Source: an uncultured Gellertiella sp.
Lineage (GTDB): Bacteria; Pseudomonadota; Alphaproteobacteria; Rhizobiales; Rhizobiaceae
Assembly (NCBI RefSeq): GCF_963457605.1
Contig: NZ_OY735139.1
Location: 1,629,501-1,693,500, forward strand
Direction of reading: 5' to 3'
DNA length: 64,000 bases
This document shows positions 13,038 through 35,700 of this stretch, in pieces. The translations under genes were made by a program, and so were the position numbers. The notes beneath the pieces are model-generated. The model saw only the letters and a list, made by a program, of their open reading frames with translations. It had not been told where the DNA came from and did no database searches. Within the stretch, counting starts at the first letter, position 1. Every line of letters starts with the position of its first letter.

Positions 13038-13046
13038 CAGCAATCC

Positions 13047-14045
13047 TCAGGCGATAAACGCCAGACCGCCCAGCGACAGTCCGGCGGAGGTGCCGACCAT
13101 CAGCGCCTTCATGCCCGTTTGTAGCCGCCCGGAGCGAAAGGCGCTATCGAGAACCGTCGGCAGCGACGCGGCGATCTGGTTGCCATGGTCGGCGATGATA
13201 TTGACCACCCTCTCCCCCGCAAAGCCGCAATGGTCGACGAGATGGGAAAGCGCGGTGTCGCTTGCCTGATGCGGCAGCACCAGATCGACATCGCCGACCG
13301 CCCAGCCCGCCTCGACGAGCAACCGTGCGAGAAAGCCTTCGAAATGCTGGAACGTGTGCCGGTAGAGCGACTTTCCATCCATCTCGAACAGGCTGTTGTC
13401 GCGGAATGCATCGGGATCACGGTGAAAGTCGTAGCGCGTCCCTCCCGCTCCAAGCCTGCAGGCCTCATAGGCCTCGGGATAGGTTTCCATCCGGCTGGCG
13501 AGGAAAGCACCGGTTCCGCCATCCGGGCAGCGTCCAATGACAGCCGCTGCCGCGCCATCGCCGAACAGGGCGGCAGTCAGCGGTGCGGTCTCCCAGGGCA
13601 GCGCCCGCGAGGCGACTTCCGACGAGACGACCAGGGCGCGCCGATACTGGCCGGTGGAGATCAGCGATGCCGCGACATCGCTGGCGGTCAGAAAGCTCAG
13701 GCAGGTCGAGTTGATGTCGAAGGCCGCCACCTTGCCCGGGGGCAGGCCGAGCCGGTGCTGGATCAGGGGTGCTGTCGCCGGGATCGACTGGTAGGACACG
13801 GCGGCGGCAAACAGGAGTAGATCCACCTCTTCCGCCGCTTCGCCCGCCTCATCAAGTGCCGCGCGGGCCGCATGTACCGCCATGTCCACCTGGTCTTCGC
13901 TGGAGACAACCGGGCGGCTTGAAACCTTGGTCATGGCCTGGACGAAACCGGGCCTGCGACCGATCCTGGCATCAATATCGCGGGAGTCCAGCCGGAAAGG
14001 CGGCACGAAGGAGCCCGTGGCAAGAAAGCGAACCGGTCTGATCAT
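13047..14045 (-). CDS. 3-oxoacyl-ACP synthase III family protein (KAS III / OleA-like)
   Basis: A thiolase-fold condensing enzyme. Counting from ATG 14045 (332 residues) the catalytic triad is C115 (FDINSTCLSF), H259 (VLPHQASD) and N289 (IIADHGNQIAASLP). KAS III enzymes condense acyl-CoA with malonyl-ACP; the related OleA performs non-decarboxylative head-to-head condensation of two acyl-CoAs. The frame can extend to 14126, but 14045 gives the normal family length. It is the first gene of a minus operon followed by the OleD-like reductase, MBL hydrolase, adenylate-forming and ATP-grasp genes. Confidence 0.88.
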   Translation of the reverse strand: MIRPVRFLATGSFVPPFRLDSRDIDARIGRRPGFVQAMTKVSSRPVVSSEDQVDMAVHAARAALDEAGEAAEEVDLLLFAAAVSYQSIPATAPLIQHRLGLPPGKVAAFDINSTCLSFLTASDVAASLISTGQYRRALVVSSEVASRALPWETAPLTAALFGDGAAAAVIGRCPDGGTGAFLASRMETYPEAYEACRLGAGGTRYDFHRDPDAFRDNSLFEMDGKSLYRHTFQHFEGFLARLLVEAGWAVGDVDLVLPHQASDTALSHLVDHCGFAGERVVNIIADHGNQIAASLPTVLDSAFRSGRLQTGMKALMVGTSAGLSLGGLAFIA

Positions 14046-14172
14046 CAACACATCCGTTGTCCCATGCCTGTTCTCCACCGGGATCACCCCCGTGCCTGAT
14101 ATCATCAGGGCCTGCCGCATCCCCATACATCATCCCAGGCTAAAATCTGAGGGCGGATTTGCGCGGCAGCGA

Positions 14173-18718: not shown

Positions 18719-19164
18719 CTCGCCATCTCCTCCGACCTCACCCGACAATACAGGCGCAGCTATGCGTCCGGCAATCCGGGCAGATTTCAGAGCGTGGCGC
18801 ATTTCGAGGGTGGCATGCGTGTCGCTTTTGCCTCTCCGCTTTCCCCATACCTGACCTCCCCGGAAACGGCCTGATGGCTCATGCCATTCTGCGCCATGCC
18901 CGGCGGCATCCTGCGGCGACCTTGTCCTCTCCGGGGCAAATGGCCGAATTTGCAGGCTTGCCCGACCCTGCGCGGTGAAATCCCGTGGAAATCCGGCCTC
19001 ACCGCTTGCGTCCGGTCCTTGTTCCCCTTGCGGTGACCGCTGGCACAGGGACCTTTGTCATGTGGTCGTGCAGTATTTGAAGAATGTCGCAGACAGGCTT
19101 CAATTCCGTCTTCTTAGGCCCTAGAGTTCGGCCTCAACATTTCAATCGGGGTTCTAAAAACCAA
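18719..19164. other. Intergenic, leader of the FAD/GcvT dehydrogenase gene
   Basis: This 446-base gap holds the divergent promoters of the DUF427 gene and the dehydrogenase. The segment 19070-19164 is the likely 5' leader of the dehydrogenase. Glycine- or SAM-riboswitch motifs were looked for by eye and not found. No convincing gene is present. Confidence 0.35.
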
Positions 19165-21726
19165 ATGGCAGAGTTTCCGCAAAAGGCAAAGGTCGTCATC
19201 ATCGGACTGGGTGGCATCGTCGGTGCCTCCATCGCGCATCACCTGATCGAGCGCGGCTGGACCGATATCGTCGGTATCGACAAGTCAGGCATCCCGACGG
19301 ACATCGGCTCGACCGCCCATGCCTCTGATTTCTGCTATGCGACCAGCCACGATTTCCTGTCCTGCTGGACGACACTCTACTCGGTCGATTTCTATGAGAA
19401 GATGGGCCATTACGCCCGTATCGGCGGTCTGGAAGTGGCCCGCACCGGCGATGACCCCCGCATGGACGAGATCCGCCGCAAGGTGACCTCCGGCAAGGCC
19501 TTCGGCACCCGCGCCCGGCTGATCGAGCCCGCCGAGATCAAGGCGAAATTCCCGCTGATCGAGGAAGAGATGGTGCAGGGCGGTCTCTGGGACCCGGATG
19601 CCGGCCTCGTCATTCCGCGCTCGCAGACGGTTGCAGGCAAGCTGGTCGACCAGGCCGAAAAGAGCGGCAAGCTCCTCTCCTTCGCCAATACGCCTGCCCA
19701 GTCGCTGGTTGTCGAGAACGGCCGCATCAAGGCGGTGGTCACCCATCGCGGCACCATCGAGGCCGATTACGTCATCGTCTGCGCCGGCCTCTGGGGCCGC
19801 CTGATTGCCGAAATGGTCGGCGAAGACCTGCCCGTCATGCCGGTCGACCATCCCTTGACCTTCTTCGGTCCCTATAACGAGTTCGAAGGCACCGGCAAGG
19901 AAATCGGCTGGCCGCTGCTGCGCGACCAGGGCAATTCCGCCTATATGCGCGATACCGGCGATCCGACCACCGCCGAAGGCGGCCAGATCGAATGGGGCTA
20001 TTACGAAGAAACCAATCCGCGCCTCTGCCATCCCCGCCACCTGCTTGAAAAGCACGAGGCCCGCCTGTCGCCGTCGCAGCGCGATCTCGAGATGGAACAG
20101 ATCATCACGCCGCTGGAACGCGCGATGGAACTGACCCCGATCCTCGGCGAGCTCGGCTATAACGAAAGCCATTCCTTCAACGGCCTGCTGCAGGTCACCA
20201 CCGATGGCGGCCCGTCGATGGGCGAGAGCCAGAAGGTGCGCGGCCTCTGGTATGCCGTTGCCATCTGGGTCAAGGACGCCCCGGGCATGGCCAAGCTGAT
20301 CGCCGACTGGATGACCGACGGGCGTACCCCGATCGACCACAACCGGATCGACTATTCGCGCTTCTATCCGCACATGATGGAAGAGAAGTTCATCGAGGGC
20401 CGCTGCACCGAGGCAGCCCAGAAGGTCTACAATCCCGCTGTCCATCCGCGCGAACCCTATGCCACCGGTCGCAACATCCGCCGCTCGCCCTTCTATGAAC
20501 GCGAAGTCGAGCTTGGCGGTTATTTCATGGAACTCGGCGGCTGGGAACGGGCCCACGGCTATGCGGCCAACGAGCATCTGCTGGAAAAATACGGCGACCG
20601 GGTTCCGGTACGTGCCAACGAGTGGGACAACCGCCATTTCTGGCGCGTCTCCAACGCCGAACATCTGGCGATGAGCGAGGATTGCGGCATCGTCAACCTC
20701 TCGCATTTCGCCATGATCGACGTCGAAGGCCCCGACCATGTGGAACTGCTGGAATGGGTGGCGGCCGCCAAGATCGGTGGCGATGCCAATATCGGCAAGG
20801 GCATCTATACCCACTTCCTCGACGAGGAAGGCATGGTGCGCGCCGACCTGACGATCATCCGCATGGCCGACCGCTGCCGCGTCATCGACGGTGCCGATGC
20901 CGGCCCGCGCGATTTCCACTATCTGCGCCGCGTTGCCGAGGACAAGGGCTTTGACGTCACCATCACCGATGTCACCGAGAAATACGTGACCATCGGCATC
21001 TGGGGCCCGAATGCCCGCGTCAACCTGCAGAAGGTGGTGGAAGATCCCGCTGGCCTTGAGCCGGAAAACTTTGCCTTCGCCGCCATCAAGCAGGTGAAGA
21101 TCGCCGGCAAGAACGTCACCGCCTTCCGCATTTCCTATGTGGGGGAACAGGGCTGGGAACTGCACATGGCCTATGGCGATGCGCTGGCCGTCTGGGATGC
21201 GCTGCGCTCCACCGGCGTAATGCCGTTCGGCGTCGAGACCTATGCCAACAGCCGCCGCATGGAAAAGAGCCTGCGGCTGCAGAATGCCGACCTGCTGACC
21301 GAGTATAACCTGATCGAATCCGATCTCGCCCGTCCGAAGGTCAAGGAAGCCGACTTCTGCGGCAAGGCCAGGCATATCGAGTACAAGGCCCGCGAGCACC
21401 AGCCCGCCATGCTCTGCACGCTTGTGATGACCGACAATGTCGATTCCAGCGGCGTCGCCCGCTATCCCGTCGGCATCATGCCGGTCATGGATCCGGCAAC
21501 CGGGGAAACGCTCGTCGACGAACTCGGCCGCCGCTCCTACACCACTTCGGTTGCCTATGGCCCGACCATCGGCAAGAACATCGCGCTTGCCTATCTCCCC
21601 TGGTCCTGGTGCCAGGAAGGCCGCAAGCTGATGGTCGAGTATTTCGGCGAGACCTATCCGGTCGAAGTCGCAGGCGTCGGCTACAAGCCGCTCTACGACC
21701 CCCAGAACCTGAAGCCGCGCACCTGA
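19165..21726 (+). CDS. FAD-dependent dehydrogenase with GcvT domain (dimethylglycine/sarcosine dehydrogenase type)
   Basis: An 853-residue fusion. The N-terminal FAD domain (residues 1 to about 390) has the dinucleotide motif VVIIGLGGIVGASIAHHL; the C-terminal half is a GcvT-like aminomethyltransferase domain (GEQGWELHMAYGDALAVWDAL, then KSLRLQNADLLTEYNLIESD). This architecture oxidatively demethylates N-methylated glycines and passes the one-carbon unit to tetrahydrofolate. ATG 19165 begins the FAD domain; an upstream start at 19084 would add 27 unrelated residues. It converges on purU across a shared terminator, consistent with disposal of the one-carbon unit as formate. The exact N-methyl substrate is open. 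Confidence 0.9.
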   Translation: MAEFPQKAKVVIIGLGGIVGASIAHHLIERGWTDIVGIDKSGIPTDIGSTAHASDFCYATSHDFLSCWTTLYSVDFYEKMGHYARIGGLEVARTGDDPRMDEIRRKVTSGKAFGTRARLIEPAEIKAKFPLIEEEMVQGGLWDPDAGLVIPRSQTVAGKLVDQAEKSGKLLSFANTPAQSLVVENGRIKAVVTHRGTIEADYVIVCAGLWGRLIAEMVGEDLPVMPVDHPLTFFGPYNEFEGTGKEIGWPLLRDQGNSAYMRDTGDPTTAEGGQIEWGYYEETNPRLCHPRHLLEKHEARLSPSQRDLEMEQIITPLERAMELTPILGELGYNESHSFNGLLQVTTDGGPSMGESQKVRGLWYAVAIWVKDAPGMAKLIADWMTDGRTPIDHNRIDYSRFYPHMMEEKFIEGRCTEAAQKVYNPAVHPREPYATGRNIRRSPFYEREVELGGYFMELGGWERAHGYAANEHLLEKYGDRVPVRANEWDNRHFWRVSNAEHLAMSEDCGIVNLSHFAMIDVEGPDHVELLEWVAAAKIGGDANIGKGIYTHFLDEEGMVRADLTIIRMADRCRVIDGADAGPRDFHYLRRVAEDKGFDVTITDVTEKYVTIGIWGPNARVNLQKVVEDPAGLEPENFAFAAIKQVKIAGKNVTAFRISYVGEQGWELHMAYGDALAVWDALRSTGVMPFGVETYANSRRMEKSLRLQNADLLTEYNLIESDLARPKVKEADFCGKARHIEYKAREHQPAMLCTLVMTDNVDSSGVARYPVGIMPVMDPATGETLVDELGRRSYTTSVAYGPTIGKNIALAYLPWSWCQEGRKLMVEYFGETYPVEVAGVGYKPLYDPQNLKPRT

Positions 21727-23524: not shown

Positions 23525-24937
23525 ATGTCAGACGAGATCCGCCGGGCAGGTGACAGTCCTGTGGGCACGGAGGGGGAGATCAAATCCGAAGAGAATGCGG
23601 CACCCCCCGACGGTCTGCCGATGCCGCGGCGGGTGATTTCGGCGGCCGCCGTCCTGACCGCCATCGTGCTCGCGGTGCTGGACGGAGCCATTGCCAATGT
23701 GGCGCTGCCGACCATCTCGCGGGTGCTCGATGTCACGCCCTCGGCGGCCATCTGGGTGGTGAGCAGCTACCAGATGGCGCTGGTCATTGCGCTTCTGCCC
23801 TGTGCGGCGCTGGGCGAAAGCTACGGCTATCGTCGGGTCTTTACCCTTGGCGTGGTGCTTTTCACCCTTGCCTCGGCGCTCTGCGCGCTCGCCCCCTCGC
23901 TCGGCTGGCTGATTGCCGCCCGGTTGCTGCAGGGACTTGGCGGGGCCGCCATCATGGCGCTGCTCGCCGCCCTGTTGCGGCTGACCTATCCAAGGCACAT
24001 GGTGGGCCGGGCCATTGGCTGGAATGCGCTGGCGGTCGCCCTGTCGGCAGCGGCGGGACCGACGCTCGGCGCGACGATCCTCACCCTTGCAGACTGGCCC
24101 TGGCTGTTTGCCATCAATATCCCGGTCGGGCTGATCGTACTTGCCTGCGCCCGGTATCTGCCCGCCCATAAGGGCACAGGTCGCCCTGTCGACCTTATCA
24201 GCGTCGCGCTCAATGCCGGTTTTTTCGCACCGCTGGTGGTTGGAGTCGATTACCTGACCTCAAGCCCGCTGCCTGGCCTGGCCCTGCTGGCCTTCGCCGC
24301 CCTCAGCCTTATCCTGCTGATCCGGCGCGAATTCGACAGTCCCGCACCGCTGATCCCGCTCGATCTGCTGCGCGCCCGGCCCTTCCGCATTTCGGTTCTG
24401 GCATCGATCTGCTGCTTTGTCGCCCAATCCGCCGCCATCATCGCCCTGCCCTTCTATATTCAGCATACATTGGGGCAACCGGCTTTCAAAACCGGGCTTT
24501 ACATGACCGCCTGGCCGCTGACGGTGGCGCTGGTCGCGCCGGTTTCGGGCAGGCTTGCCGACCGGGTGCCGACGGGCCTGCTCTGTGCGCTCGGTGGAAC
24601 CGCTTTTGCCGCAGGGCTGATCGGCTGCGCGCTCTGGCCGCTCCAGACCCATGTCGGCGCGCTGATCCCGATGACCATGCTGGCAGGCCTCGGCTTCGGC
24701 TTCTTCCAGACACCCAACAACCGCAACATGCTGATGGCCGCCCCGCGGGCGCGGATCGGTGCGGCGGGCGGCATGCAGGGGACGGCAAGACTGACCGGCC
24801 AGACCATCGGCGCGGTGCTGATGGCGCTGCTGTTCACGCTCGCCCCCGTCGATATCGCGCCCCGCTTCGGGCTTGCAATTGCAGCGGTGCTGGCGCTTTC
24901 GGCAGGGCTGATCAGTACACTGAGGATCAGGGCGTGA
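23525..24937 (+). CDS. MFS transporter, drug:H+ antiporter (DHA2/EmrB-QacA) type
   Basis: A 470-residue inner-membrane protein with a roughly 35-residue cytoplasmic N-tail and many hydrophobic segments consistent with 14 helices. Motifs include VLDGAIANVALPTISRVL (family motif D1), WVVSSYQMALVIALLPCAALGESYGYRRVF (motif A region) and RLLQGLGGAAIMALLAALL. It probably exports toxic compounds or metabolites. AGGATTG upstream supports ATG 23525. The 3' end overlaps the convergent aconitase X gene by 11 bases. Confidence 0.92.
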   Translation: MSDEIRRAGDSPVGTEGEIKSEENAAPPDGLPMPRRVISAAAVLTAIVLAVLDGAIANVALPTISRVLDVTPSAAIWVVSSYQMALVIALLPCAALGESYGYRRVFTLGVVLFTLASALCALAPSLGWLIAARLLQGLGGAAIMALLAALLRLTYPRHMVGRAIGWNALAVALSAAAGPTLGATILTLADWPWLFAINIPVGLIVLACARYLPAHKGTGRPVDLISVALNAGFFAPLVVGVDYLTSSPLPGLALLAFAALSLILLIRREFDSPAPLIPLDLLRARPFRISVLASICCFVAQSAAIIALPFYIQHTLGQPAFKTGLYMTAWPLTVALVAPVSGRLADRVPTGLLCALGGTAFAAGLIGCALWPLQTHVGALIPMTMLAGLGFGFFQTPNNRNMLMAAPRARIGAAGGMQGTARLTGQTIGAVLMALLFTLAPVDIAPRFGLAIAAVLALSAGLISTLRIRA

Positions 24938-26663
24938 GCCAGGCCGGAAGCGCCGCGCTGGCCCGTCCGGTGCACGCCGCCTCCACGCAGCCGGCGAGGC
25001 TGGCGAAATAGAGCTTCCGGCCTGAAAGGCCGGTGCCATAATGGGCATATTTGCCGGAATTGGTGATGATCGTACGGGCGTGCGGCGGGATCACCGGCTC
25101 GACCACCATGCACCAGCAGGTATCGACGACAATCTGGACGCCGAATGCCTCGAGTTCCTCCCGGATACCCGCGCGGGTGATCGCTTCTACCGTCGCCCGG
25201 CCCGCAGTCACCACCACCGCCACATCGGGATCGCGGATGCGCCCCTTGCAAAGGGCTGAAAGCCTTGCAAATTCATCCGCCGAGAAATGTGGATTGCCGA
25301 GCGACACCAGGTCGACGCGCAACTCCGTCGCGCTGTTGAGCTTCGTCCAGCTGCCGGCGAGATCGGCGGGCCCGACCGCGACCCTTTCGACATCCATGCC
25401 ACCCGTTGCCTGTGCGAGATCGCAGGCCTCGGGCGTTACGCCGACGATATGAAACATGGGCGCCCCCGACGAGGTTGCAAAGGCCGCCCCGAAGGCCTTC
25501 AGGTCATCCGGCGTCGGATGGGCAGCCTCGAGCCCGGAAAGGACGGGTATCTCCGACGGTGAAAGCAGGCCCGCGTGATAGCCAAGCAGGGGATAGAAGG
25601 CGTCGTCGATGCCTTCAGGAACCGTCACCGCGACATGCAGCCGTGCCCGCCTCTCGCTGTCGAGATGGCAGCCCGCCAGCGGTGCGCGGCCGGTGAGCGC
25701 GATGCAGATATCGAGATAATCAGGATATTTCATCGTGCGCGCGCCGAGCACGCTGTTGGCGTAGACCACCGCATTGGATTCCGCCCAGACGATATTCTCC
25801 CCTTCCACCGGCGCTGAGGCAAGCTGGTAGGGCGCGCAGGTGAATGTGGGCTCAGCCCCCATCGCCACATAGGCATCGGCAAGCGCGCTGGCGGGTTCGC
25901 CGAGGTCAGGGTCCGTTCCCTGCTGCCGCCAGTTCAGCCGGTCGACGGAGATGGCGTTGAGCGTGGTCGGCACCCTGACCCGCGCCCCGCCGTCGCAAAG
26001 CGCCCGGGCAAAATTCAGGCTGGCCGCGCCCGTATAGATGCAGCCATCGATATGCGCCCGCGTAACGTCGATCAACGCACTTGCCCCGAGAATATTGGCA
26101 AAGCGCAGGATGATCCGCATGGCCAGGGCGGCAGCGCGGCCCTCGCCACCCGCCAGCATTCGCCGGTCCGGATCGCTCAGCCGCAGCGCGGAGCGCGGTG
26201 CCGCACCTGCGACATGCGTCTCGGCCATGTCGCCCGCGTCGAAGACCCGATTGCCGTCGATCCCGATTGAAGACTTTGACTCGAGCGCGGCAAACCCCTC
26301 CGCGCCGAGCGCGACCATCGGGATCGATACGCCAAAGACCTCTTCGGCAACGATCACGCCCAGAGACAGGATCTCCTCCTTCTGGGCGAATATCATGCCC
26401 GCCGGTCCGTGGCCATTCAGGATCAGTTCCATGATGACGCTGCTGCCGGTACAGGAGCCCCGCCCGCTCGGAATGGCAAGGATGCGGCCTTTGACATTTT
26501 TGCCGAACAGCGGATGGGTGCGGTCGATCACCTCGCCGGTTGCCGCGTCGATACCGCCCCAGAAGCTGATGGGGACATCGCTGTGCAGAAGCTCGCCTTT
26601 CGCCTTGCCATCGACAAGCACCGCGCCGGTTTCCATCCATGTTGCCTGCGTGGTTTGCGTCAC
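24927..26663 (-). CDS. Aconitase X (AcnX), fused swivel and catalytic domains (DUF521)
   Basis: A 578-residue single-chain AcnX. The small swivel domain is at the N-terminus (VLVDGKAKGELLHSDVPISFWGG, then IPSGRGSCTGSSVIMELI), followed by the large domain with NSVLGARTMKYPDYLDICIALTGRAP. Characterised bacterial AcnX proteins are cis-3-hydroxy-L-proline dehydratases, while archaeal ones act on phosphomevalonate; the fused type from agrobacteria is of the former kind. The start is non-ATG: GTG 26663 with AAAGGGA upstream is preferred to TTG 26669, and the first ATG is at 26636. It is divergent from the acylphosphatase-like gene. No other hydroxyproline genes are adjacent. Confidence 0.85.
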   Translation of the reverse strand: MTQTTQATWMETGAVLVDGKAKGELLHSDVPISFWGGIDAATGEVIDRTHPLFGKNVKGRILAIPSGRGSCTGSSVIMELILNGHGPAGMIFAQKEEILSLGVIVAEEVFGVSIPMVALGAEGFAALESKSSIGIDGNRVFDAGDMAETHVAGAAPRSALRLSDPDRRMLAGGEGRAAALAMRIILRFANILGASALIDVTRAHIDGCIYTGAASLNFARALCDGGARVRVPTTLNAISVDRLNWRQQGTDPDLGEPASALADAYVAMGAEPTFTCAPYQLASAPVEGENIVWAESNAVVYANSVLGARTMKYPDYLDICIALTGRAPLAGCHLDSERRARLHVAVTVPEGIDDAFYPLLGYHAGLLSPSEIPVLSGLEAAHPTPDDLKAFGAAFATSSGAPMFHIVGVTPEACDLAQATGGMDVERVAVGPADLAGSWTKLNSATELRVDLVSLGNPHFSADEFARLSALCKGRIRDPDVAVVVTAGRATVEAITRAGIREELEAFGVQIVVDTCWCMVVEPVIPPHARTIITNSGKYAHYGTGLSGRKLYFASLAGCVEAACTGRASAALPAWLTP

Positions 26664-26710
26664 GGTCAATCCCTTTGTCCCTTGCCATCGTTTCGAGCCC
26701 GGTCATCCTA

Positions 26711-26743: not shown

Positions 26744-26894
26744 AATAACGTAGATGCGCAAAACAGGAACGAAAGCGCGGCACTGTTCAACCCTGTAAAA
26801 CACGACGCGCTTTGGTCGGCCGCACCGGGAAGACAATCCACTTGACAGATCCGGGTGAATTCCTGCTTCCTGCCCGACAAGGAGCATATTGACC

Positions 26895-27215
26895 ATGGCC
26901 GACGAAGATCCCCCCATCAAGCATGAGAAACTGATCCTTCGCGGCGATATTGCTTCCGCCTCCTTCCTGCCATGGATCGACCGGCACGCACGCAAGCTCG
27001 GCCTTGCCGGCGGGATAGCGGCGCACGATGCGCTGCGGATCGAGCTCGACATGTCAGGCCCGCGCGAATTGCTGGATGCGATGGAAATGGGCTGTTCGCT
27101 CGGCCCCATCGACGTCTGGATCGAGACCATCGAACGCATTGCGATGCCGGAGCCTGCGCACGACGGTTGGTCGGCAGGCTGGACCGACAACCTCCAGGAA
27201 CAGGGTGCGATCTGA
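26895..27215 (+). CDS. Acylphosphatase-like small protein lacking the catalytic residues
   Basis: A 106-residue protein whose core (KLILRGDIASASFLPWIDRH, then ARKLGLAGGIAAHDALRIEL and a terminal GPIDVWIETIE) follows the acylphosphatase pattern of strand, GxVQGVGFR loop, helix and GxVxN strand. The catalytic Arg of the 'GFR' loop is replaced (SFL) and the Asn of 'RN' is Ala, so it is unlikely to hydrolyse acyl phosphates. ATG 26895 follows AAGGAG at good distance. It may be a binding or structural relic; the family assignment is moderate. Confidence 0.6.
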   Translation: MADEDPPIKHEKLILRGDIASASFLPWIDRHARKLGLAGGIAAHDALRIELDMSGPRELLDAMEMGCSLGPIDVWIETIERIAMPEPAHDGWSAGWTDNLQEQGAI

Positions 27216-27518: not shown

Positions 27519-28172
27519 ATGTTTCCTGATTCGCGTTGCGCGTGGACACCCGTCGCGTTGTCCCGGGATCTGCCCCCGGCAACCGTTGTGCCTGCCTTTA
27601 TTCCCGAAGGCAGCTTTGCCCTCTGGCGCAGCCAGAGCGGTCGCCTCTCGGTCTCTGCCGACCGTTGCCCCCATCGCGGCATGCGGCTTTCCCACGGCTT
27701 TGTGCGTGGCGAGGCCCTGTCCTGCATCTATCACGGCTGGAGCTATGGCCAGAGCGGCCAGTGCCTGCGCATTCCCGCCCATCCCGACCTGACCCCGCCT
27801 GAGGCGATCCGCGTGGTGACAGCCACGGCGTGCGAACAGGACGGGGTGATATGGGTCGCCGCCCGGGATCCGCAGATGACGCCCCCAGCCCTCGACGGGA
27901 TGGAGCCGCTGCGTACGCTGACCTCAACGGCGCGGCAGGCCGATCTCCTGCGCGCCCTTGGCCAGACGGAACCCGCCGATGGCATGGTGCGGACGCGCCT
28001 CGCCGACACGGACACAACCCTGCTGTTTGCGCCACAGGCATCAGACCAGATCCTGATCCATGTGCTGGTGGATGCCACTGCCGGGCTCGCCGCGCGCATT
28101 GCGGTGTCGCGGGCGCTGGAAGCGGTGCGGCGCGCGGCCGAGCAGGTCCACCAAAAGGATGCAGCAGCATGA
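27519..28172 (+). CDS. Free-standing Rieske [2Fe-2S] protein
   Basis: A 217-residue protein with one Rieske domain: C50-P-H52 and C69-I-Y-H72 (CIYHGWSY). The segments around it match the N-terminal half of ring-hydroxylating oxygenase alpha subunits, but the mononuclear-iron catalytic half is absent; residues 130-217 are a short helical extension. It therefore can carry electrons but not oxygenate. It overlaps the next gene, which has the complementary catalytic half, by 4 bases. The pair looks like an oxygenase split into two polypeptides. An electron-donating reductase is not encoded in the window. Confidence 0.85.
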   Translation: MFPDSRCAWTPVALSRDLPPATVVPAFIPEGSFALWRSQSGRLSVSADRCPHRGMRLSHGFVRGEALSCIYHGWSYGQSGQCLRIPAHPDLTPPEAIRVVTATACEQDGVIWVAARDPQMTPPALDGMEPLRTLTSTARQADLLRALGQTEPADGMVRTRLADTDTTLLFAPQASDQILIHVLVDATAGLAARIAVSRALEAVRRAAEQVHQKDAAA

Positions 28173-29014
28173 GCGCCGGAGCCATGAAAGACGAATGGTA
28201 TCCGGTCGGACTGGTCAGCCAGCTGAAACCCGTGCCTGCGGAAACCGCCCTTCTCGGCCAGCCGATCCGGGTCGGCCTTGGTGAGCGTGGCGCACCGCGC
28301 GTGACGACAGCCGGGGGGCGGGAACTGCCCGTCATCACCCGGTTCGGCCATGTCTGGACCTCGACCGGCGCACCGAAGAAAGACCTGTTTACCATTACCG
28401 AGGCGGACCAGCCCGGTCGGCGACTGGTCGATGTCGGGGTGGTCCGGGTCCGCTGCTCGCCGCTCCGTGCGGTCGAAAACTTCCTCGACATCGCCCATTT
28501 TCCCTTTGTCCACACGGATATCCTGGGTGCCGAGCCGCATACGGAAGTGCAGAACTATCAGGTCAATATCCGCGAGGAAGAAGACGAGGTCTGGGCGACC
28601 AAGATCTCCTTCTACCAGCCGCAGGCAGCGAAATCGGCAGCGGGCGGGATTACCACCGAATACATGTACCGGGTGGCCGCTCCCACCTCGACGGTTCTCT
28701 ACAAGACCTGCCCGCCGCGCCCCGGCGAATGGGATGTGATCACGCTCTTCGTCCAGCCGCTCGCCGAAGATCTCTGCGATGTCTGGCCATGGATGGCGCT
28801 GTTCGACGATGTGACGCCGATGACCGATCTCATCCATTTCCAGCAGACGATCTTTCTGCAGGACCGGTCGATCCTTGAAAACCAGATCCCGCGCCTGTTG
28901 CCGCTCGATCCCGGCATGGAAATCCCGACCCGGGCGGATCTCACCTCCGTTGCCTACAGGCGCTGGCTGAAGAAGCACAATTTTACCTATGGCGCGCAGC
29001 TGGTGGCCCAATGA
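28169..29014 (+). CDS. Rieske oxygenase catalytic subunit lacking the Rieske domain (NdmC-like)
   Basis: A 281-residue protein. Its N-terminus (EWYPVGLVSQLKPVPAETAL) aligns with the start of ring-hydroxylating oxygenases and then jumps to TRFGHVWTSTGAP, so the segment with the Cys/His cluster ligands is deleted. The mononuclear-iron site is intact: N104, D107, H110, H115 in ENFLDIAHFPFVH, with the later helix LQDRSILENQIPRLLP. It must receive electrons from a separate Rieske protein, evidently the upstream gene. ATG 28169 overlaps that gene by 4 bases, and the GST gene follows with another 4-base overlap. NdmC of caffeine-degrading Pseudomonas has the same architecture. Confidence 0.85.
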   Translation: MSAGAMKDEWYPVGLVSQLKPVPAETALLGQPIRVGLGERGAPRVTTAGGRELPVITRFGHVWTSTGAPKKDLFTITEADQPGRRLVDVGVVRVRCSPLRAVENFLDIAHFPFVHTDILGAEPHTEVQNYQVNIREEEDEVWATKISFYQPQAAKSAAGGITTEYMYRVAAPTSTVLYKTCPPRPGEWDVITLFVQPLAEDLCDVWPWMALFDDVTPMTDLIHFQQTIFLQDRSILENQIPRLLPLDPGMEIPTRADLTSVAYRRWLKKHNFTYGAQLVAQ

Positions 29015-29670
29015 TCCTCTACGACTACATTCTCTCGCCCAGTTGCTACAAGGCCCGGCTGCTGGCCGCGCTGACAGGCGTGAAGCTGGTGCTGCGCCCC
29101 GTCGATTTTCATCCCGGCCTCGAACATAGGGGGCCGGCACTTCTGGCCCTGAACCCGGCGGGCTCGATCCCGATCCTTGAGGACGGCGAGCTGATCCTGA
29201 CGGACTCCTCGGCGATCCTCACCTATCTCGCAAGCCTTGCCGCGCCGCAATGGCTGGGCGACGGGTCGCCCGTCGCCAATGCCCGGGTCCAGCAATGGCT
29301 GTCGTTTTCGCCGCGCCTGACCGCAAGTCTTGGCCGCGCCCGCCTGCATGACATGCTGCTGCGCCCCGGCGATATCGAGGCGCTCCGGGCCGACGGCATC
29401 GCGGCTCTGCGCGAACTTGAAGCCGCGCTCACGGAGCAGCGGCTGCGGGGCCTGACCTTCCTTGCCGGTGACAGGCCGACCATCGCCGACATCGCCTGTT
29501 TCCCCTATGTGGCGCTCGCGGGCGATGGCGGTGTTTCGCTGGATGCCTATCCGTCGATCCGCCTCTGGTCGAAGGCGCTGCGGGCGCTTGACGGTTTCAT
29601 CGAAATGCCGGGCATCCACCGGCTGCACGAGCTGAAGCCGGAACCGACCCTTGCCGAAAGCGGGGACTGA
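29011..29670 (+). CDS. Glutathione S-transferase family protein (NdmE-like position)
   Basis: A 219-residue GST-fold protein: thioredoxin-like N-terminal domain (YDYILSPSCYKARLLAAL, NPAGSIPILEDGELILTDSSAI with the cis-Pro and Asp-Ser-Ser glutathione site) and all-helical C-terminal domain (FLAGDRPTIADIACFPY). It could be catalytic or structural. In the caffeine pathway a GST homologue (NdmE) scaffolds the Rieske-less oxygenase and its Rieske donor, and this gene is coupled by overlap to just such a pair. Confidence 0.88.
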   Translation: MILYDYILSPSCYKARLLAALTGVKLVLRPVDFHPGLEHRGPALLALNPAGSIPILEDGELILTDSSAILTYLASLAAPQWLGDGSPVANARVQQWLSFSPRLTASLGRARLHDMLLRPGDIEALRADGIAALRELEAALTEQRLRGLTFLAGDRPTIADIACFPYVALAGDGGVSLDAYPSIRLWSKALRALDGFIEMPGIHRLHELKPEPTLAESGD

Positions 29671-29672
29671 GC

Positions 29673-31052
29673 ATGGCGGGCCATCTCCTCAAGGGTTGCG
29701 CGGCGGTGATTGTCGATGACGGGTCCGGACCCGTCGTTCACCGTGACGTTGATCTGCTGACGGAAGGCCCTGCCATCAAGGCCATCGGGACCGGGCTCGA
29801 CCGTATGCCGCTTGCCGACGGTACCGATATCATCGATGCCCGTGGCTGGTTCGTCTATCCCGGGCTGATCAACACCCATCACCATTTCTTCCAGTGTTTC
29901 GTGCGCAACCGCGCCGATCTCGACTGGACGAAACTGTCGATCATCGAATGGCTGGACCGGATCTACCCGATCTTTTCGCGGCTGACGGAGGATTGCTTCT
30001 ACCATTCCTCGCTGACCGCCATGGCCGAACTGATCAAGCATGGCTGCACCACCGCCTTCGACCATCAATACAATTTCCCCCGCCATGCGGGAAAGCGGCT
30101 GATCGACCGGCAGTTCGAGGCCGCCGACCTGCTCGGCATGCGCTTTCACGCCGGACGTGGCGGCAATACGCTGCCGAAATCCGAAGGGTCGACCATCCCC
30201 GACCAGATGCTCGAGACCACCGATGAATTCATCGCCGATTGCGCCCGGCTAATCGACACCTACCATGACTGCAATCCCTTCAGCATGCGACAGGTGGTGG
30301 TGGCACCCTGCCAGCCGGTCAATTGCTACCGGGAAACCTTCGTCGAATCGGTGGCCCTGGCCCGGGATCGCGGCGTGCTGCTGCATACCCATGCCGGCGA
30401 GGGCGAGAGCCCGATCATCGAAGCCCGCCACGGGATGCGCACCGTCGATTATTGTGAAGAACTGGGCTTTGCCGGGCCGGACACCTTCTACGCCCATGGC
30501 TGGGAATTGAGCCATGACGAACTGCGAAAGCTGGCCCGGTCGGGAACCGGCCTTTCCCATTGCCCGGAGCCGGTCTATCTCGTCGGTGCCGAGGTAACCG
30601 ATATCCCGGCCATGGCGGCCTTTGGCCTGCGGATCGGGCTCGGCTGCGATGGCGCGGCCTCGAATGACAATTCAAACCTGATGCACTGCATCCATTCCGC
30701 CTACATGCTGCAATGCCTGGTCGCCTCGTCGCGACAGCATCCGGTGCCCGATCCCGCCGCCTTCCTCGCCTATGCCACCAGCGGCGGCGCGAGCCTGCTC
30801 GGCCGGGCGGATCTCGGACGCCTTGCGCCCGGCATGGCCGCCGACCTCTTTGCCATCGATACCCGCCGGATGGATTATGTCGGCACCCGGCACGATCCCC
30901 TGAGCCTGATCGCCAAGCTGGGGATTGGCATGCCGACGGATTTGACGATGATCAATGGCCGGATCGTCTGGGCCCGGGGAGAATTTCCGGGTCTCGACGA
31001 GGCCCGGCTTGCCGCCGAAGCCGAAGCCGCATTTTCCACCATCGCCCCCTAA
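29673..31052 (+). CDS. Amidohydrolase, 8-oxoguanine/guanine deaminase-like
   Basis: A 459-residue amidohydrolase-superfamily enzyme of the TRZ/ATZ deaminase branch. It has the metal motif HHHFFQ (from NTHHHFFQCFVRN), HTHAGEGES for the metal/substrate His pair, YAHGWELSHDEL, and the catalytic Asp in GCDGAASND. HHHFFQ is a hallmark of the 8-oxoguanine and isoxanthopterin deaminase subgroup, so an amino-purine or pterin substrate is likely. It lies 2 bases after the GST gene and 21 bases before the transporter binding-protein gene in the same operon. Confidence 0.88.
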   Translation: MAGHLLKGCAAVIVDDGSGPVVHRDVDLLTEGPAIKAIGTGLDRMPLADGTDIIDARGWFVYPGLINTHHHFFQCFVRNRADLDWTKLSIIEWLDRIYPIFSRLTEDCFYHSSLTAMAELIKHGCTTAFDHQYNFPRHAGKRLIDRQFEAADLLGMRFHAGRGGNTLPKSEGSTIPDQMLETTDEFIADCARLIDTYHDCNPFSMRQVVVAPCQPVNCYRETFVESVALARDRGVLLHTHAGEGESPIIEARHGMRTVDYCEELGFAGPDTFYAHGWELSHDELRKLARSGTGLSHCPEPVYLVGAEVTDIPAMAAFGLRIGLGCDGAASNDNSNLMHCIHSAYMLQCLVASSRQHPVPDPAAFLAYATSGGASLLGRADLGRLAPGMAADLFAIDTRRMDYVGTRHDPLSLIAKLGIGMPTDLTMINGRIVWARGEFPGLDEARLAAEAEAAFSTIAP

Positions 31053-31073: not shown

Positions 31074-32174
31074 ATGCGCACCACCATCAGCCGCAGAAAT
31101 CTCATGAAGAGCGTCGCGCTCACCGGTCTTGCCTCCGCCATCGGGGCCCGCGTCTCGCTGGCGGCAGATGAACCGCTGGGCATCACGCTGGTGCTGCCCT
31201 CGCCGCTCGGCGATGTCGGCTGGGGCCATGCGCTTGCCGCAGCACTCGATCCGATCAAGGCCGCCTATGGCGACAAGGTCAAGGTGACGGTGCTCGAAAA
31301 CATCGCCGAAGGCCCGGATGCCGACCGGATCATGAACAAGACCGTGGCAGACGGAAACAAGTTCCTGATCGCCGGATCCTTCGGCTACCAGAATGGCGCC
31401 TTGCAGATTGCCAAGCGCAATCCCGATGTGACGGTGCTGCATGCCTCCGGCTATGAGGTCGCGCCGAACTTTTCGCCCTTTGCCGCAAAATATTTCCAGG
31501 GGACCTATCTGATGGGCATGGCGGCTGCAGCGCTGTCGAAGACCGGCAAGCTCGGCTCGGTCTCGGCCTTCGCCATCCCCGAACTCATCACCTCGATCAA
31601 TGCCTTCACGCTCGGCGCGCAGGCGGTCAACCCCAATGTCGAAGTCTCGGTCGTCTGGGTCAATTCCTGGTTCGACCCGGCCAAGGAACAGGAAGCCGCC
31701 AAGGCGCTGATCGCGCAGAAATGCGACGTGATCTTCTCCAATGCGCAGGATACGCCCTCGGTGATCTCGGCTTGCGAGGCGGCAGGCGTCTATGCCTTCA
31801 ACCTCAATTCCTCGATGAAGACCTATGCGCCGAAAACCTATCTTGGCTGTGTCGCCACCGACTGGTCACCCTTCTTCAAGGCCTCCGTCGATGCCCATGT
31901 CGCGGGCACGTTCAAGGGGGCGAATGCCTTCCTCGGCGTTGCCGACAAGGTGGTCGAGGTGGTCGACTGGAGCGCCGACGTGCCTGCCGACACGATGGCC
32001 AGGATCAAGGACGCCGAGGCAAAGATTGCCAGCGGGGCCCTGTCACCCTTTGCCGGTCCGCTGACCAAGGCCGATGGCAGCGAGGGCGTTGCCAAGGGCG
32101 TGACCATGACCGATGCCGAAATCGTTGCGATGGACTGGCACGTCAAGGGCGTCACCACGCCGCTACCGAAGTAA
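31074..32174 (+). CDS. BMP-family ABC transporter substrate-binding protein
   Basis: A 366-residue periplasmic protein with a twin-arginine-like signal (SRRNLMKSVALTGLASAIGA). The body is a basic-membrane-protein (PnrA/Med-like) fold: VLPSPLGDVGWGHA, IAEGPDADRIMNKTVADG, YFQGTYLMGMAAA and VVWVNSWFDPAKEQEAA. Family members bind nucleosides, purines and related ring compounds. It follows the deaminase gene by 21 bases and precedes its ATPase by 3 bases. With a deaminase and oxygenase upstream, a modified purine or pterin ligand is a reasonable inference. Confidence 0.92.
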   Translation: MRTTISRRNLMKSVALTGLASAIGARVSLAADEPLGITLVLPSPLGDVGWGHALAAALDPIKAAYGDKVKVTVLENIAEGPDADRIMNKTVADGNKFLIAGSFGYQNGALQIAKRNPDVTVLHASGYEVAPNFSPFAAKYFQGTYLMGMAAAALSKTGKLGSVSAFAIPELITSINAFTLGAQAVNPNVEVSVVWVNSWFDPAKEQEAAKALIAQKCDVIFSNAQDTPSVISACEAAGVYAFNLNSSMKTYAPKTYLGCVATDWSPFFKASVDAHVAGTFKGANAFLGVADKVVEVVDWSADVPADTMARIKDAEAKIASGALSPFAGPLTKADGSEGVAKGVTMTDAEIVAMDWHVKGVTTPLPK

Positions 32175-32177
32175 GCC

Positions 32178-33701
32178 ATGACCGCTCCTCTTCTGTCGCT
32201 GCGCGGGATTACCAAAAGCTACGGCCAGACCCTTGCCAATTCCGGCGTCGATCTGGACGTGGCGCCGCGCAGCATTCACGCCATTCTCGGTGAAAACGGC
32301 GCCGGCAAGTCGACACTGATGAAACTCATCTATGGTGTCGAAGCGCCGGATGACGGTGAGGTGATCTGGGAAGGGGAGAAGGTCGACCTTGCCTCGCCCG
32401 CCGAGGCGCGGCGGCGCGGCATTGGCATGGTCTTCCAGCATTTCTCGCTGTTTGAGACCCTGACGGTGGTCGAAAACATCTCGCTGGTGGTGCCGGGCCG
32501 AAAACCGGCCCTGATTGCCCGCATCAAGGCACTTGGCCGGGATTTCGGCCTTGAGGTCGATCCGCTTGCCCATGTCCACCAATTGTCGGTGGGGGAGCGG
32601 CAGCGGGTGGAAATCATCCGCAGCCTGCTCACCGATCCCCGGCTGCTGATCCTTGATGAACCCACTTCCGTGCTGCCGCCGCAATCGGTCGAGCGGCTGT
32701 TCGATACCTTGCGGCGGCTGCGCGACAGCGGTGTGTCGATCCTGTTCATCTCCCACAAGCTTGAGGAAATCCGGGCGATCTGCGACCACGCCACCATTCT
32801 GCGGGCAGGCAGGGTGACCGGCAATGTCGATCCGCGGGACCACGACGCCCATGATCTCGCCCGGATGATGATCGGTCGTGACATGCCGGAACCGGTCCCC
32901 GCCGTCGTCATGCCCGAGGGCGAGCGGCGACTGGAGGTGAAATCCCTCTCCCATGTGCCGGGATCGCCCTTTGCCATGCCGCTCCGCGATGTCTCGCTGT
33001 CGGTTCGCTCGGGGGAAATCCTCGGCATTGCCGGGATATCAGGCAATGGCCAGAGCGAGCTTTCCGAGCTGATCTCCGGCGAAATCCGGCTTTCCCGGGC
33101 CGAACGGGACAACATCCGGATGATGGGCCATGCGGTGGGCGACCTCGACCCGGCAGCGCGCCGCAAGCTCGGCTTTGCCTTCGTCCCGGAGGACAGGCTG
33201 GGGCGCGGCGCGGTTCCCGAATTGTCGCTGGCCCGCAACACGTTGCTCACCGCCCACCGTTTCGGCCTCGTCAGGCACGGACTGGTCGACCAGGCGGGCG
33301 CAACCGGTTTTGCCGAGACCTGCATCCGCGATTTTGATGTCAGGACATCAGGACCGCAGGCCGAAGCGGGTGCGCTTTCGGGCGGCAATCTGCAGAAATT
33401 CATCGTCGGGCGGGAAATCATGCTGGCCCCGAAACTGCTGTTCGTCGCCCAGCCGACCTGGGGCGTCGACATCGGTGCGGCCTCGGCCATCCGCCAGCGG
33501 CTGATCAACCTGCGCAACGCGGGCATTGCCATTCTCGTCATCTCGGAGGAAATCGAAGAATTGTTCGAGCTTTGCGATCATATCCAGGTGATCCACAAGG
33601 GCCGCCTGTCGCCGCCGCTTGTCAAGCGGGAGACGAGGCCGGAGGAGATCGGCCGCTACATGATCGGTGCCGGGAATGCCAAACAGGGAGTGACCGCATG
33701 A
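32178..33701 (+). CDS. ABC transporter ATP-binding protein, tandem NBD (YufO/NupO type)
   Basis: A 507-residue protein with two nucleotide-binding domains. The first has Walker [10 protein letters not shown], signature LSVGERQRVEI and Walker B LLILDEPTSVL. The second has a changed Walker A (GISGNGQSELSE) and signature LSGGNLQKFIVG, as usual in this family and in ribose-type ATPases. It powers the BMP-type importer with the two permeases that follow, overlapping the first by 4 bases. Confidence 0.93.
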   Translation: MTAPLLSLRGITKSYGQTLANSGVDLDVAPRSIHAILGENGAGKSTLMKLIYGVEAPDDGEVIWEGEKVDLASPAEARRRGIGMVFQHFSLFETLTVVENISLVVPGRKPALIARIKALGRDFGLEVDPLAHVHQLSVGERQRVEIIRSLLTDPRLLILDEPTSVLPPQSVERLFDTLRRLRDSGVSILFISHKLEEIRAICDHATILRAGRVTGNVDPRDHDAHDLARMMIGRDMPEPVPAVVMPEGERRLEVKSLSHVPGSPFAMPLRDVSLSVRSGEILGIAGISGNGQSELSELISGEIRLSRAERDNIRMMGHAVGDLDPAARRKLGFAFVPEDRLGRGAVPELSLARNTLLTAHRFGLVRHGLVDQAGATGFAETCIRDFDVRTSGPQAEAGALSGGNLQKFIVGREIMLAPKLLFVAQPTWGVDIGAASAIRQRLINLRNAGIAILVISEEIEELFELCDHIQVIHKGRLSPPLVKRETRPEEIGRYMIGAGNAKQGVTA

Positions 33702-34792
33702 GCGCCGTCCACGCCCTGCCGCGTCTGATCCGCCGCGAAAAGTCCTCGCTGGCAATGGCCTTTCTCGCCCCCGTCATCGCGCTGGTGACCGCGACGGTGC
33801 TGAACCTCGTTCTCTACCTGCTGATGGGCAAGGACCCGGCAAGCGTCTTCTATGCGATGCTGCTCGATCCCTTCCTGTCCTGGTCGTCCTTTTCCGAAGT
33901 GCTGCTGAAAACCGGGCCGCTGCTGCTGATCGCGCAGGGGCTTGCCATCGGCTTCCGGGCAAGGGTGTTCAATATCGGTGCCGAAGGCCAGTTCATCCTC
34001 GGGGCGGTCTTCGCCTCGGCGATCCCTGTCTGGTTTCCAGGTGCCGAAGGCATGTGGATCTGGCCGCTGATGCTGCTGCTCGGCGCGCTCGGGGGTGCGC
34101 TCTGGGCCTCGATCACCGCCTTCTGGCGGGTCCGGCTCAATGCCAATGAAATCCTGGTGTCGCTGATGATGAGCCTTGTTGCCACCCAGGTGCTGAATTA
34201 CCTGCTGCTCGGGCCATGGAAAGACCCGCATGGCTTCAATTTCCCGCAATCGGTGATGTTCCAGTATGATGCGCTGGTGCCGCTCCTGATCCCGGGAACG
34301 AGGGTCAATGTCTCCCTGCTTCTGGCCGTGCTTGCCTCGGTCATCGCCTGGGTCTTCATGCAGAAGAGCTTTCGCGGCTATCAGCTGCTGGTTGGCGGAC
34401 TTGCGCCGCGCGCTGCGCGCTATGCCGGGTTTTCCGAAGCCAGTGCCATCTGGCTGGCGCTGCTGATCAGCGGGTTTGTCGCAGGTCTTGCCGGGGCTGC
34501 CGAAGTGGCGGGGCCGGTCGGCCAGCTGCAGCGGTCGATTTCGACCGGCTATGGCTATGCCGCGATCATCGTTGCCTATCTCGGTGGGCTGCATCCGCTC
34601 GGCATCATCATCGCCTCGCTGCTGATGGCCGCGCTTTATATCGGCGGCGATACAGCCATGGTTTCGGCCAATCTGCCGATTGCCGCTGTCTGGGTGTTTC
34701 AGGGCAGCCTGCTGCTGTCCTATCTGGTTGCCCAGACCTTCGTGCGCTACCGTCTCGACTGGGGCCACTCCACACGCAGGGTTCCCTCATGA
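33698..34792 (+). CDS. ABC transporter permease, YufP/NupP type
   Basis: A 364-residue BPD_transp_2 family permease with about nine membrane segments and GFRARVFNIGAEGQFILGA, the conserved cytoplasmic motif of the class. ATG 33698 overlaps the ATPase stop by 4 bases; the frame upstream of it belongs to overlap with that gene. It pairs with the next permease. Confidence 0.93.
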   Translation: MSAVHALPRLIRREKSSLAMAFLAPVIALVTATVLNLVLYLLMGKDPASVFYAMLLDPFLSWSSFSEVLLKTGPLLLIAQGLAIGFRARVFNIGAEGQFILGAVFASAIPVWFPGAEGMWIWPLMLLLGALGGALWASITAFWRVRLNANEILVSLMMSLVATQVLNYLLLGPWKDPHGFNFPQSVMFQYDALVPLLIPGTRVNVSLLLAVLASVIAWVFMQKSFRGYQLLVGGLAPRAARYAGFSEASAIWLALLISGFVAGLAGAAEVAGPVGQLQRSISTGYGYAAIIVAYLGGLHPLGIIIASLLMAALYIGGDTAMVSANLPIAAVWVFQGSLLLSYLVAQTFVRYRLDWGHSTRRVPS

Positions 34793-35700
34793 ATGCCATT
34801 GCCTTCATCTTCGCCGGCATGCTGGCCGCCGCCACGCCCTTTCTGCTGGCAGCACTCGGCGAACTCGTCGTCGAGCGCTCCGGCGTTCTCAATCTCGGGA
34901 TCGAGGGCATCATGGCGCTGGGGGCGGTCATTGCCTTCATCATCGTCCATGCGGGCGGCAGCCATGGCCTCGGCTTTGCCGCAGCCGGCCTTGGCGGCGT
35001 GGCGCTGTCGCTGATCTTTGCCTTTGTGACGCTGGGCTTCCGGGCAAACCAGGTGGCAACAGGCCTTGCCATCGGCATTCTCGGCGAGGGCCTCTCCGCC
35101 CTGTTCGGCAAGACCCATGAAAGCCAGACCATCACCGGCCTGCCGACCCTGGCGCTGCCCTACCTCTCCGATCTACCCGTCGCGGGTGGCCTCTTTCGCC
35201 AGGACCTCGTCGTCTGGCTGTCGCTGCTGGCAACCGTGGCGATCTGGTATGTCTTTCGCCATTCGAAAATCGGACTGCTGCTGCGCGCCGTCGGTGAAAA
35301 CCCGAAGGCCGCCCATGCCATCGGCTATCCCGTGATCCTGATCCGGCTTGCAGCCATTGCCTTTGGCGGCATGATGGCGGGCTTTGCCGGAGCCTATGCC
35401 TCGACGGTCTATACGCCGCTCTGGGCCGACGGGATGATTGCCGGACGCGGCTGGATCGCCATTGCGCTGGTGGTGTTCGGCACCTGGATGACGGGCCGGA
35501 TCTTTCTCGGTGCCTGCCTGTTCGGGGCGGTCTCGCTGATGGGGCTTGCCGCCCAGACCACCGGGCTCAACGTCCCCTCGCAATTGCTGGCTAGCCTGCC
35601 CTATCTCGTCACCATCATCGTGCTCGGCATCATCTCCTCGAACCGCCGCCTCCTGACCCTGAACGGCATCGCCTCGCTTGGCGAACCCTTCGAACACTGA
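34789..35700 (+). CDS. ABC transporter permease, YufQ/NupQ type
   Basis: A 303-residue permease with ERSGVLNLGIEGIMALGA, the conserved motif of the second permease of BMP-type importers, and about eight membrane helices. It overlaps the preceding gene by 4 bases and is the last gene of the eight-gene operon; no strong terminator was seen after it. Confidence 0.93.
   Translation: MNAIAFIFAGMLAAATPFLLAALGELVVERSGVLNLGIEGIMALGAVIAFIIVHAGGSHGLGFAAAGLGGVALSLIFAFVTLGFRANQVATGLAIGILGEGLSALFGKTHESQTITGLPTLALPYLSDLPVAGGLFRQDLVVWLSLLATVAIWYVFRHSKIGLLLRAVGENPKAAHAIGYPVILIRLAAIAFGGMMAGFAGAYASTVYTPLWADGMIAGRGWIAIALVVFGTWMTGRIFLGACLFGAVSLMGLAAQTTGLNVPSQLLASLPYLVTIIVLGIISSNRRLLTLNGIASLGEPFEH

Follow-up and report, generated by a model that had tools for sequence, protein, structure and literature searches.

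A conserved rhizobial operon of the NdmCDE kind encoding a separate Rieske donor, a Rieske-less oxygenase and a GST-fold partner

How an oxygenase that lacks its Rieske cluster might receive electrons is the question raised by three adjoining genes in a 64,000-nucleotide stretch of DNA from an uncultured Gellertiella sp. (contig NZ_OY735139.1, positions 1,629,501 to 1,693,500 of the forward strand; hereafter the window). All three lie on the plus strand and encode, in order, a Rieske protein of 217 amino acids (aa) (gene 1, 27519-28172; the donor), a Rieske-less catalytic subunit of the NdmC family (gene 2, 281 aa, 28169-29014; the catalyst), and a protein of the NdmE family with a glutathione S-transferase (GST) fold (gene 3, 219 aa, 29011-29670). 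A previous reading of the sequence alone had compared the trio with NdmC, NdmD, and NdmE of caffeine-degrading Pseudomonas. We consider it probable that the products constitute a heteromeric, purine-oxidising Rieske oxygenase of the NdmC/NdmE family, with the cofactors placed on two reciprocally degenerate alpha-type subunits.

The sole Pfam domain of the catalyst is VanA_C (PF19112, E 5e-19). The iron-site residues that the sequence-only reading had picked out, N104, D107, H110, and H115, are intact at the positions it gave and, together with D232, which we take to be the third iron ligand, are the same in all 81 aligned proteins, the window copy among them. The loss of the cluster-binding segment that it described is also borne out, as the 49 residues bearing the cluster loops are gone and the flanking strands of the Rieske domain are retained. 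A catalytic domain with the iron motif and no Rieske cluster motif is the make-up of the NdmC family, and the 80 relatives compared are 80-85% identical to the window copy. Among partly overlapping catalyst-type entries from loci L082 and up, the 116 without a Rieske motif are at least 44% identical to the best query, and the 18 with the motif are at most 41.5% identical.

In the donor, a Rieske domain (PF00355, E 1e-19) holds an intact [2Fe-2S] site (C50, H52, C69, and H72), the ligands of which are invariant in 79 of 79 aligned proteins, as are E201, R204, and E208 in its conserved C-terminal half; overall identity to the window copy is only 49-59% among the 78 relatives compared. The protein had been described as a Rieske domain with no catalytic domain, and here the earlier reading has to be revised, since the predicted structure has a whole oxygenase alpha-subunit fold across residues 1-217, in which the catalytic domain has shrunk to ~90 residues (about 128-217) and the iron motif is absent. 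SxtT, GxtA, and dicamba O-demethylase all share this predicted fold, and among solved structures both donor and catalyst match SxtT and GxtA best by sequence. Going by the structural model, the donor appears to be an alpha subunit that has degenerated, not just a Rieske domain by itself. Donor and catalyst look like reciprocally degenerate alpha-subunit paralogues.

The GST fold claimed for gene 3 is recovered by Pfam (GST_N/GST_C), and the protein scores 291 bits against its profile, compared with at most 193 for the other GSTs scored. The glutathione-site motif varies across the family, from D-S-S-A in the window to D-A-Q-A (L082 and L085) and E-S-Q-A (L084), and is different again in the loci of dispersed architecture described below, which fits a structural role of the kind postulated for NdmE.

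Homology to the caffeine system extends to all three proteins, as had been proposed. With NdmC, NdmD, and NdmE assigned here from gene order and domain make-up, as the records name families only, the Pseudomonas putida MT178 locus (L082) aligns with the catalyst at 43% identity over residues 8-275 (95% of the query, E 1e-77), with the donor at 40% over 118 residues of the NdmD N terminus, and with the GST-fold protein at 43%. Matches of the catalyst on annotated plasmids of P. putida, Klebsiella, and Sinorhizobium directly precede a Rieske-reductase gene followed by a GST gene, which is the arrangement ndmC-ndmD-ndmE. The MT178 locus also holds two full-length Rieske oxygenases. On plasmid pPp1290 of P. 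putida 1290 (L088, 9844-11599), an NdmD-like gene is annotated as three consecutive open reading frames (ORFs) and is followed by a GST gene.

The arrangement of the genes is far beyond chance, because the order of donor, catalyst, and GST is kept in all 80 related loci fetched, these being the best 80 of 183 catalyst relatives from a scan of genome contigs and nearly all from named rhizobia or close kin. The same conservation rules out a sequencing artefact or a single broken gene. The ORFs and the coupling by 4-base overlaps noted previously were confirmed on the plus strand, with ATGA at both joints; counting the window copy, the donor/catalyst overlap is kept in 63 of 81 cases and the catalyst/GST overlap in 78 of 81. 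The three genes are the first of an operon that continues on the same strand with an amidohydrolase related to 8-oxoguanine deaminase (29673-31052), which keeps its place in 80 of 80 loci, a BMP-type binding protein related to the guanine-binding AtzT (31074-32174), and the ATPase (32178-33701) and two permeases (33698-34792, the start placed by its 4-base overlap with the ATPase gene, and 34789-35700) of an ATP-binding cassette (ABC) importer, ending at 35700. All four transporter genes come next in 79 of the 80 relatives; the remaining contig (L019) ends early.

Co-occurrence was assessed by profile search in 297 Rhizobiaceae genomes, in each of which about 9-10 best candidates were scored, with a catalyst threshold of E 1e-30 and a donor threshold of 198 bits that was chosen after a gap down to 108 bits had been seen. 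There were 116 catalyst genes in 72 genomes and 76 donor genes in the same 72 (Fisher p 7e-71, with genomes treated as independent despite their relatedness), the absence of the Rieske cluster having been read from the sequence for those catalysts whose loci were fetched. No donor-level match was found among the candidates scored in the 225 catalyst-free genomes. Regular occurrence of the catalyst without its partners, which would have spoken against the proposed grouping, is contradicted by the presence of a donor in 72 of 72 catalyst genomes. For 75 of the 76 donors, an NdmE-type GST (at least 226 bits, the next score being 193) is found no more than 2.5 kb away, and 71 of the 72 genomes have a full-score copy; in the other (G569), there is a partial match within 1 kb of the donor. 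At the level of the locus the grouping has exceptions: of the 116 catalysts, 78 are within 1.5 kb of a donor, 36 at 1.5-20 kb, and 2 elsewhere in a donor-bearing genome. Two catalysts accompany one donor in 33 genomes, one of each is found in another 33, and 6 have other mixes. Since catalytic genes outnumber donors 116 to 76, one donor probably serves several catalysts. Of the donors, 53 are encoded in frames of fewer than 400 codons, and the other 23 belong to long, NdmD-like frames. Matches were rarer outside the Rhizobiaceae, with 8 of 385 genomes in a class-level sample (the window's own counted) and 21 of 398 in a phylum-level sample, six of the latter with full-length oxygenases only. 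The family sample contains four further genomes of the same genus as the window, all without the catalyst, so the operon is patchily distributed.

Several architectures are found. The window type consists of donor, catalyst, GST, amidohydrolase, and importer; type B (L171, L172, L173, L187, and L191) has a separate reductase gene between the GST and the importer, the catalyst gene of L173 being fragmented; the fused type has one or more catalysts followed by NdmD and NdmE; and in the dispersed type (L166 and L167) donor and GST are together, with the catalyst at an importer a few kb away. On pSymA of Sinorhizobium meliloti USDA1106 (L086, 6968-14843), three Rieske-less catalyst genes surround one BMP-type importer within 15 kb, the last truncated by the end of the stretch. 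A Lichenihabitans plasmid first taken for a case of a partnerless catalyst was rejected as such, as the donor and GST pieces span the start of the record. The Rhizobium grahamii locus (L091) has catalyst, importer, and amidohydrolases, with no donor or GST in the 14.8-kb stretch covered.

Trees were built from the window copy, 9 of the 80 window-type loci, the annotated-plasmid copies, and the larger regions, with the short loci L094-L153 excluded. In the catalyst tree, loci with a standalone donor form one clade (35 rows; support by the Shimodaira-Hasegawa-like approximate likelihood ratio test, SH-aLRT, 94), with the fused types outside it. The donors, together with the donor parts of NdmD, form one clade against full-length oxygenases (SH-aLRT 93), within which a standalone group (32 rows, SH-aLRT 90) is accompanied by one of mainly fused members (16 rows, SH-aLRT 93), and L181 is unplaced. 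A single clade holding all 33 standalone-labelled rows is rejected by an approximately unbiased (AU) test (p 0.02), probably on account of L160, which has that label and falls within the fused group. In the reductase tree the basal branching is unresolved. Type B loci should be useful for the question of whether NdmD originated by fusion or its separate parts by fission.

In ordinary members of the Rieske oxygenase family, each iron is already served by the cluster of a neighbouring subunit, and a split over interlocking subunits would therefore preserve the electron path. Taking up this principle together with the anatomy, homology, conservation, co-occurrence, and single clades of catalysts and of donors shown above for the sampled trees, we propose that the donor keeps the [2Fe-2S] cluster and a vestigial catalytic domain, that the catalyst keeps the mononuclear iron site but, of the Rieske domain, no more than the scaffold, and that the GST-fold protein acts as a non-catalytic assembly factor. 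From the homology to NdmCDE and the co-occurrence, we infer that the three proteins form one complex. A reductase or ferredoxin encoded outside the operon would supply the donor with electrons, and these would pass to D107 and the iron of the catalyst. The iron would then oxidise an imported purine, most likely taking off an N-methyl group as formaldehyde. A guanine-like base would be brought in by the importer and deaminated by the amidohydrolase, and the operon as a whole might convert something like 7-methylguanine to xanthine.

A purine is the likely substrate. The nearest solved relatives of the binding protein by sequence are 3s99 and AtzT. According to PMC6834077, AtzT holds guanine via Ser97, the Phe98 backbone, Glu165, Asn218, and Asn220, with the base lying between Tyr45 and Trp194. 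With residue numbers matched by hand on the alignment, the window protein has S102, F103, E170, N223, W50, and W199 at positions of this site, all invariant in 80 of 80 proteins (the window and 79 relatives), but Asn220 is not kept, and we would expect a guanine-like ligand with one edge changed. When the surroundings of four other family loci (L166, L171, L176, and L177) were searched, the fused-type L177 was found beside an 8-oxoguanine deaminase above the cut-off and a xanthine-dehydrogenase-like protein below it, and L166 beside an adenine-deaminase-type protein; nothing as clear was found around L171 and L176. A methylated guanine-type purine is thus a likely substrate, and 7-methylguanine is our guess, as it would fit importer, deaminase, and demethylase together.

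A number of observations weigh against this proposal. By sequence, the donor C terminus resembles the catalyst weakly (67%, 21 columns), and its match to oxygenases of full length is not significant (0.3%); the vestigial catalytic domain consequently rests mainly on the predicted fold. The structure prediction for the catalyst was poor (predicted local distance difference test score, pLDDT, 48); a shallow alignment, with a mean column identity of 92%, is the probable cause. The operon contains no reductase; the one NdmD-reductase relative found in the window's genome (36%) belongs to a dimethylamine-monooxygenase-like cluster 360 kb away, and the reductase of that cluster is also the single PF00175 match found in the genome, where there are nine Fer2 matches. 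In the binding protein, AtzT Asn220 is replaced by D226 and an inserted Gln in 80 of 80 proteins, and the amidohydrolase, although 8-oxoguanine deaminase is its nearest match, scores 368 bits and misses the cut-off of 532 for that enzyme. Finally, P. putida NdmC is the only member of the family we met with a tested reaction.

With respect to the reaction, the same split enzyme could hydroxylate the purine ring at C8 in the manner of HpxDE, converting guanine to 8-oxoguanine, from which the amidohydrolase would form urate. This would suit both the nearest match of the amidohydrolase and the kinship of the importer with AtzT, and proteins annotated as HpxD are distantly related to the catalyst (26-31% identity among the matches listed), HpxD being, unlike the catalyst, a full-length oxygenase. 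The hpxDE genes are described in PMC7373994 as oxidising hypoxanthine and xanthine. However, the catalyst is much closer to NdmC than to HpxD, and the missed deaminase cut-off and the altered guanine site tell against this chemistry as well, so that we regard it as unlikely. We favour N-demethylation of the purine over C8 hydroxylation, since among characterised relatives the closest is an N7-demethylase.

A different objection is that gene 1 might be an ordinary, transiently docking Rieske ferredoxin, as in three-component dioxygenases, and no structural subunit at all, since it carries a typical Rieske domain on a separate protein without a fused reductase. Such ferredoxins comprise a Rieske domain only, of about 100-110 aa, and the donor, at 217 aa against about 105, with its predicted full-length alpha-subunit fold and invariant C-terminal residues, does not resemble one. 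Its profile matches of E 1e-25 or better also fall into two sets, one of at least 198 bits over the whole length and one of at most 108 bits, nearly all of which cover the Rieske part only. We therefore think this improbable. It is more doubtful still, to the point of being hardly credible, that the system is decaying or forms a non-catalytic binding or sensing complex; donor and catalyst are each degenerate when taken singly, and the glutathione motif is variable, but the invariant iron and cluster ligands and the strict conservation of an operon with catabolic genes are difficult to reconcile with decay. A heteromeric oxygenase with divided cofactors accounts best for these features in our assessment.

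Beyond the individual operon, it is an evenly balanced question whether these systems form a modular oxygenase class that arose once by duplication of an alpha subunit and reciprocal degeneration, in which a shared donor and GST serve interchangeable catalysts, NdmCDE is the reductase-fused branch, and the interlock of a cluster-only and an iron-only subunit is its unsolved architecture. What is new here is this complementary alpha-subunit reading of the evolution, and the variant also implies shared-donor modularity. If true, rhizobia could gain purine-oxidising specificities by adding catalysts alone. The locus reveals a large family whose parts are often free proteins, and interlocked cluster-only and iron-only alpha subunits offer a concrete, testable assembly. 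The small, separable components may also help in studying how electrons pass between subunits and in building oxygenases whose catalytic modules can be exchanged, and the operon itself appears to be an uncharacterised one for purine salvage, common to many Rhizobium and Mesorhizobium strains.

Around the operon, a small acylphosphatase-like ORF (26889-27215, plus strand; PF00708 marginally above the cut-off) lies upstream of the donor gene and precedes it on the same strand in every related locus but L002 (79 of 80), a conserved neighbour without an obvious role in oxygenase chemistry. Neither in the window nor in four relatives did any Rfam family reach its gathering threshold within the operon, two matches on L031 being outside it, and a link to a xanthine or urate riboswitch was accordingly dropped. 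Six kb before the operon, 19084-21726 (plus strand) encodes an 880-aa fusion of an FAD-dependent oxidase and a folate-binding aminomethyltransferase of the demethylating-dehydrogenase type. On the minus strand, 24927-26669 encodes a cis-3-hydroxy-L-proline dehydratase (aconitase X), which at 848 bits clears its cut-off of 700. The window also holds another Rieske oxygenase, of full length (7782-8780, plus strand), near a ketoacyl synthase III, a metallo-beta-lactamase-fold protein, and an ATP-grasp-like protein that scores under its cut-off; with 8796-14126 it looks like a small biosynthetic cluster.

Among known systems, a comparable division is found in the two-chain chlorophyllide a oxygenase of Micromonas pusilla, in which one chain reportedly carries the cluster and the other the iron. 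This is an algal plastid enzyme and, unlike the system in the window, has no GST; PMC9615114 describes one Rieske oxygenase on two polypeptides, with a suggested heteromeric organisation. HpxD/HpxE resemble the window system in being of the Rieske type with a purine substrate, according to PMC7373994. SxtT/GxtA and dicamba O-demethylase differ in having both cofactors in one chain. Type B loci, like the window, have donor, catalyst, and GST as three genes in that order, whereas their next gene is a separate NdmD-like reductase, so that all four parts are free.

The closest comparison is with NdmCDE, the N7-demethylase of the caffeine pathway of P. putida, a stable complex of three proteins in which NdmC removes the N7-methyl group of 7-methylxanthine. 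In a 2015 review (PMC4408171), NdmC is without a Rieske cluster, NdmD carries an extra one, the required GST-like NdmE is postulated to align the two, and the system is termed very unique among Rieske oxygenases; a 2026 paper gives the structure of the complex as still unsolved. The review also reports homologues of ndmCDE in Sinorhizobium and Mesorhizobium, so the rhizobial link is already in print; among the papers listed by searches of open-licence literature aimed at this enzyme type, none was seen to describe the standalone-donor form. The donor shares the N-terminal Rieske homology of NdmD and differs in having no reductase domain, as the Rieske part of NdmD is fused to an FMN/NADH/ferredoxin reductase and the donor is a separate protein. 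The modular, NdmCDE-like version proposed by the sequence-only reading therefore stands as to homology and the separate donor, but not as to a bare Rieske domain, and the operon lacks a reductase. With its BMP-type ABC importer and amidohydrolase, which NdmCDE does not have, the operon is a real and strictly conserved variant of the NdmCDE kind.
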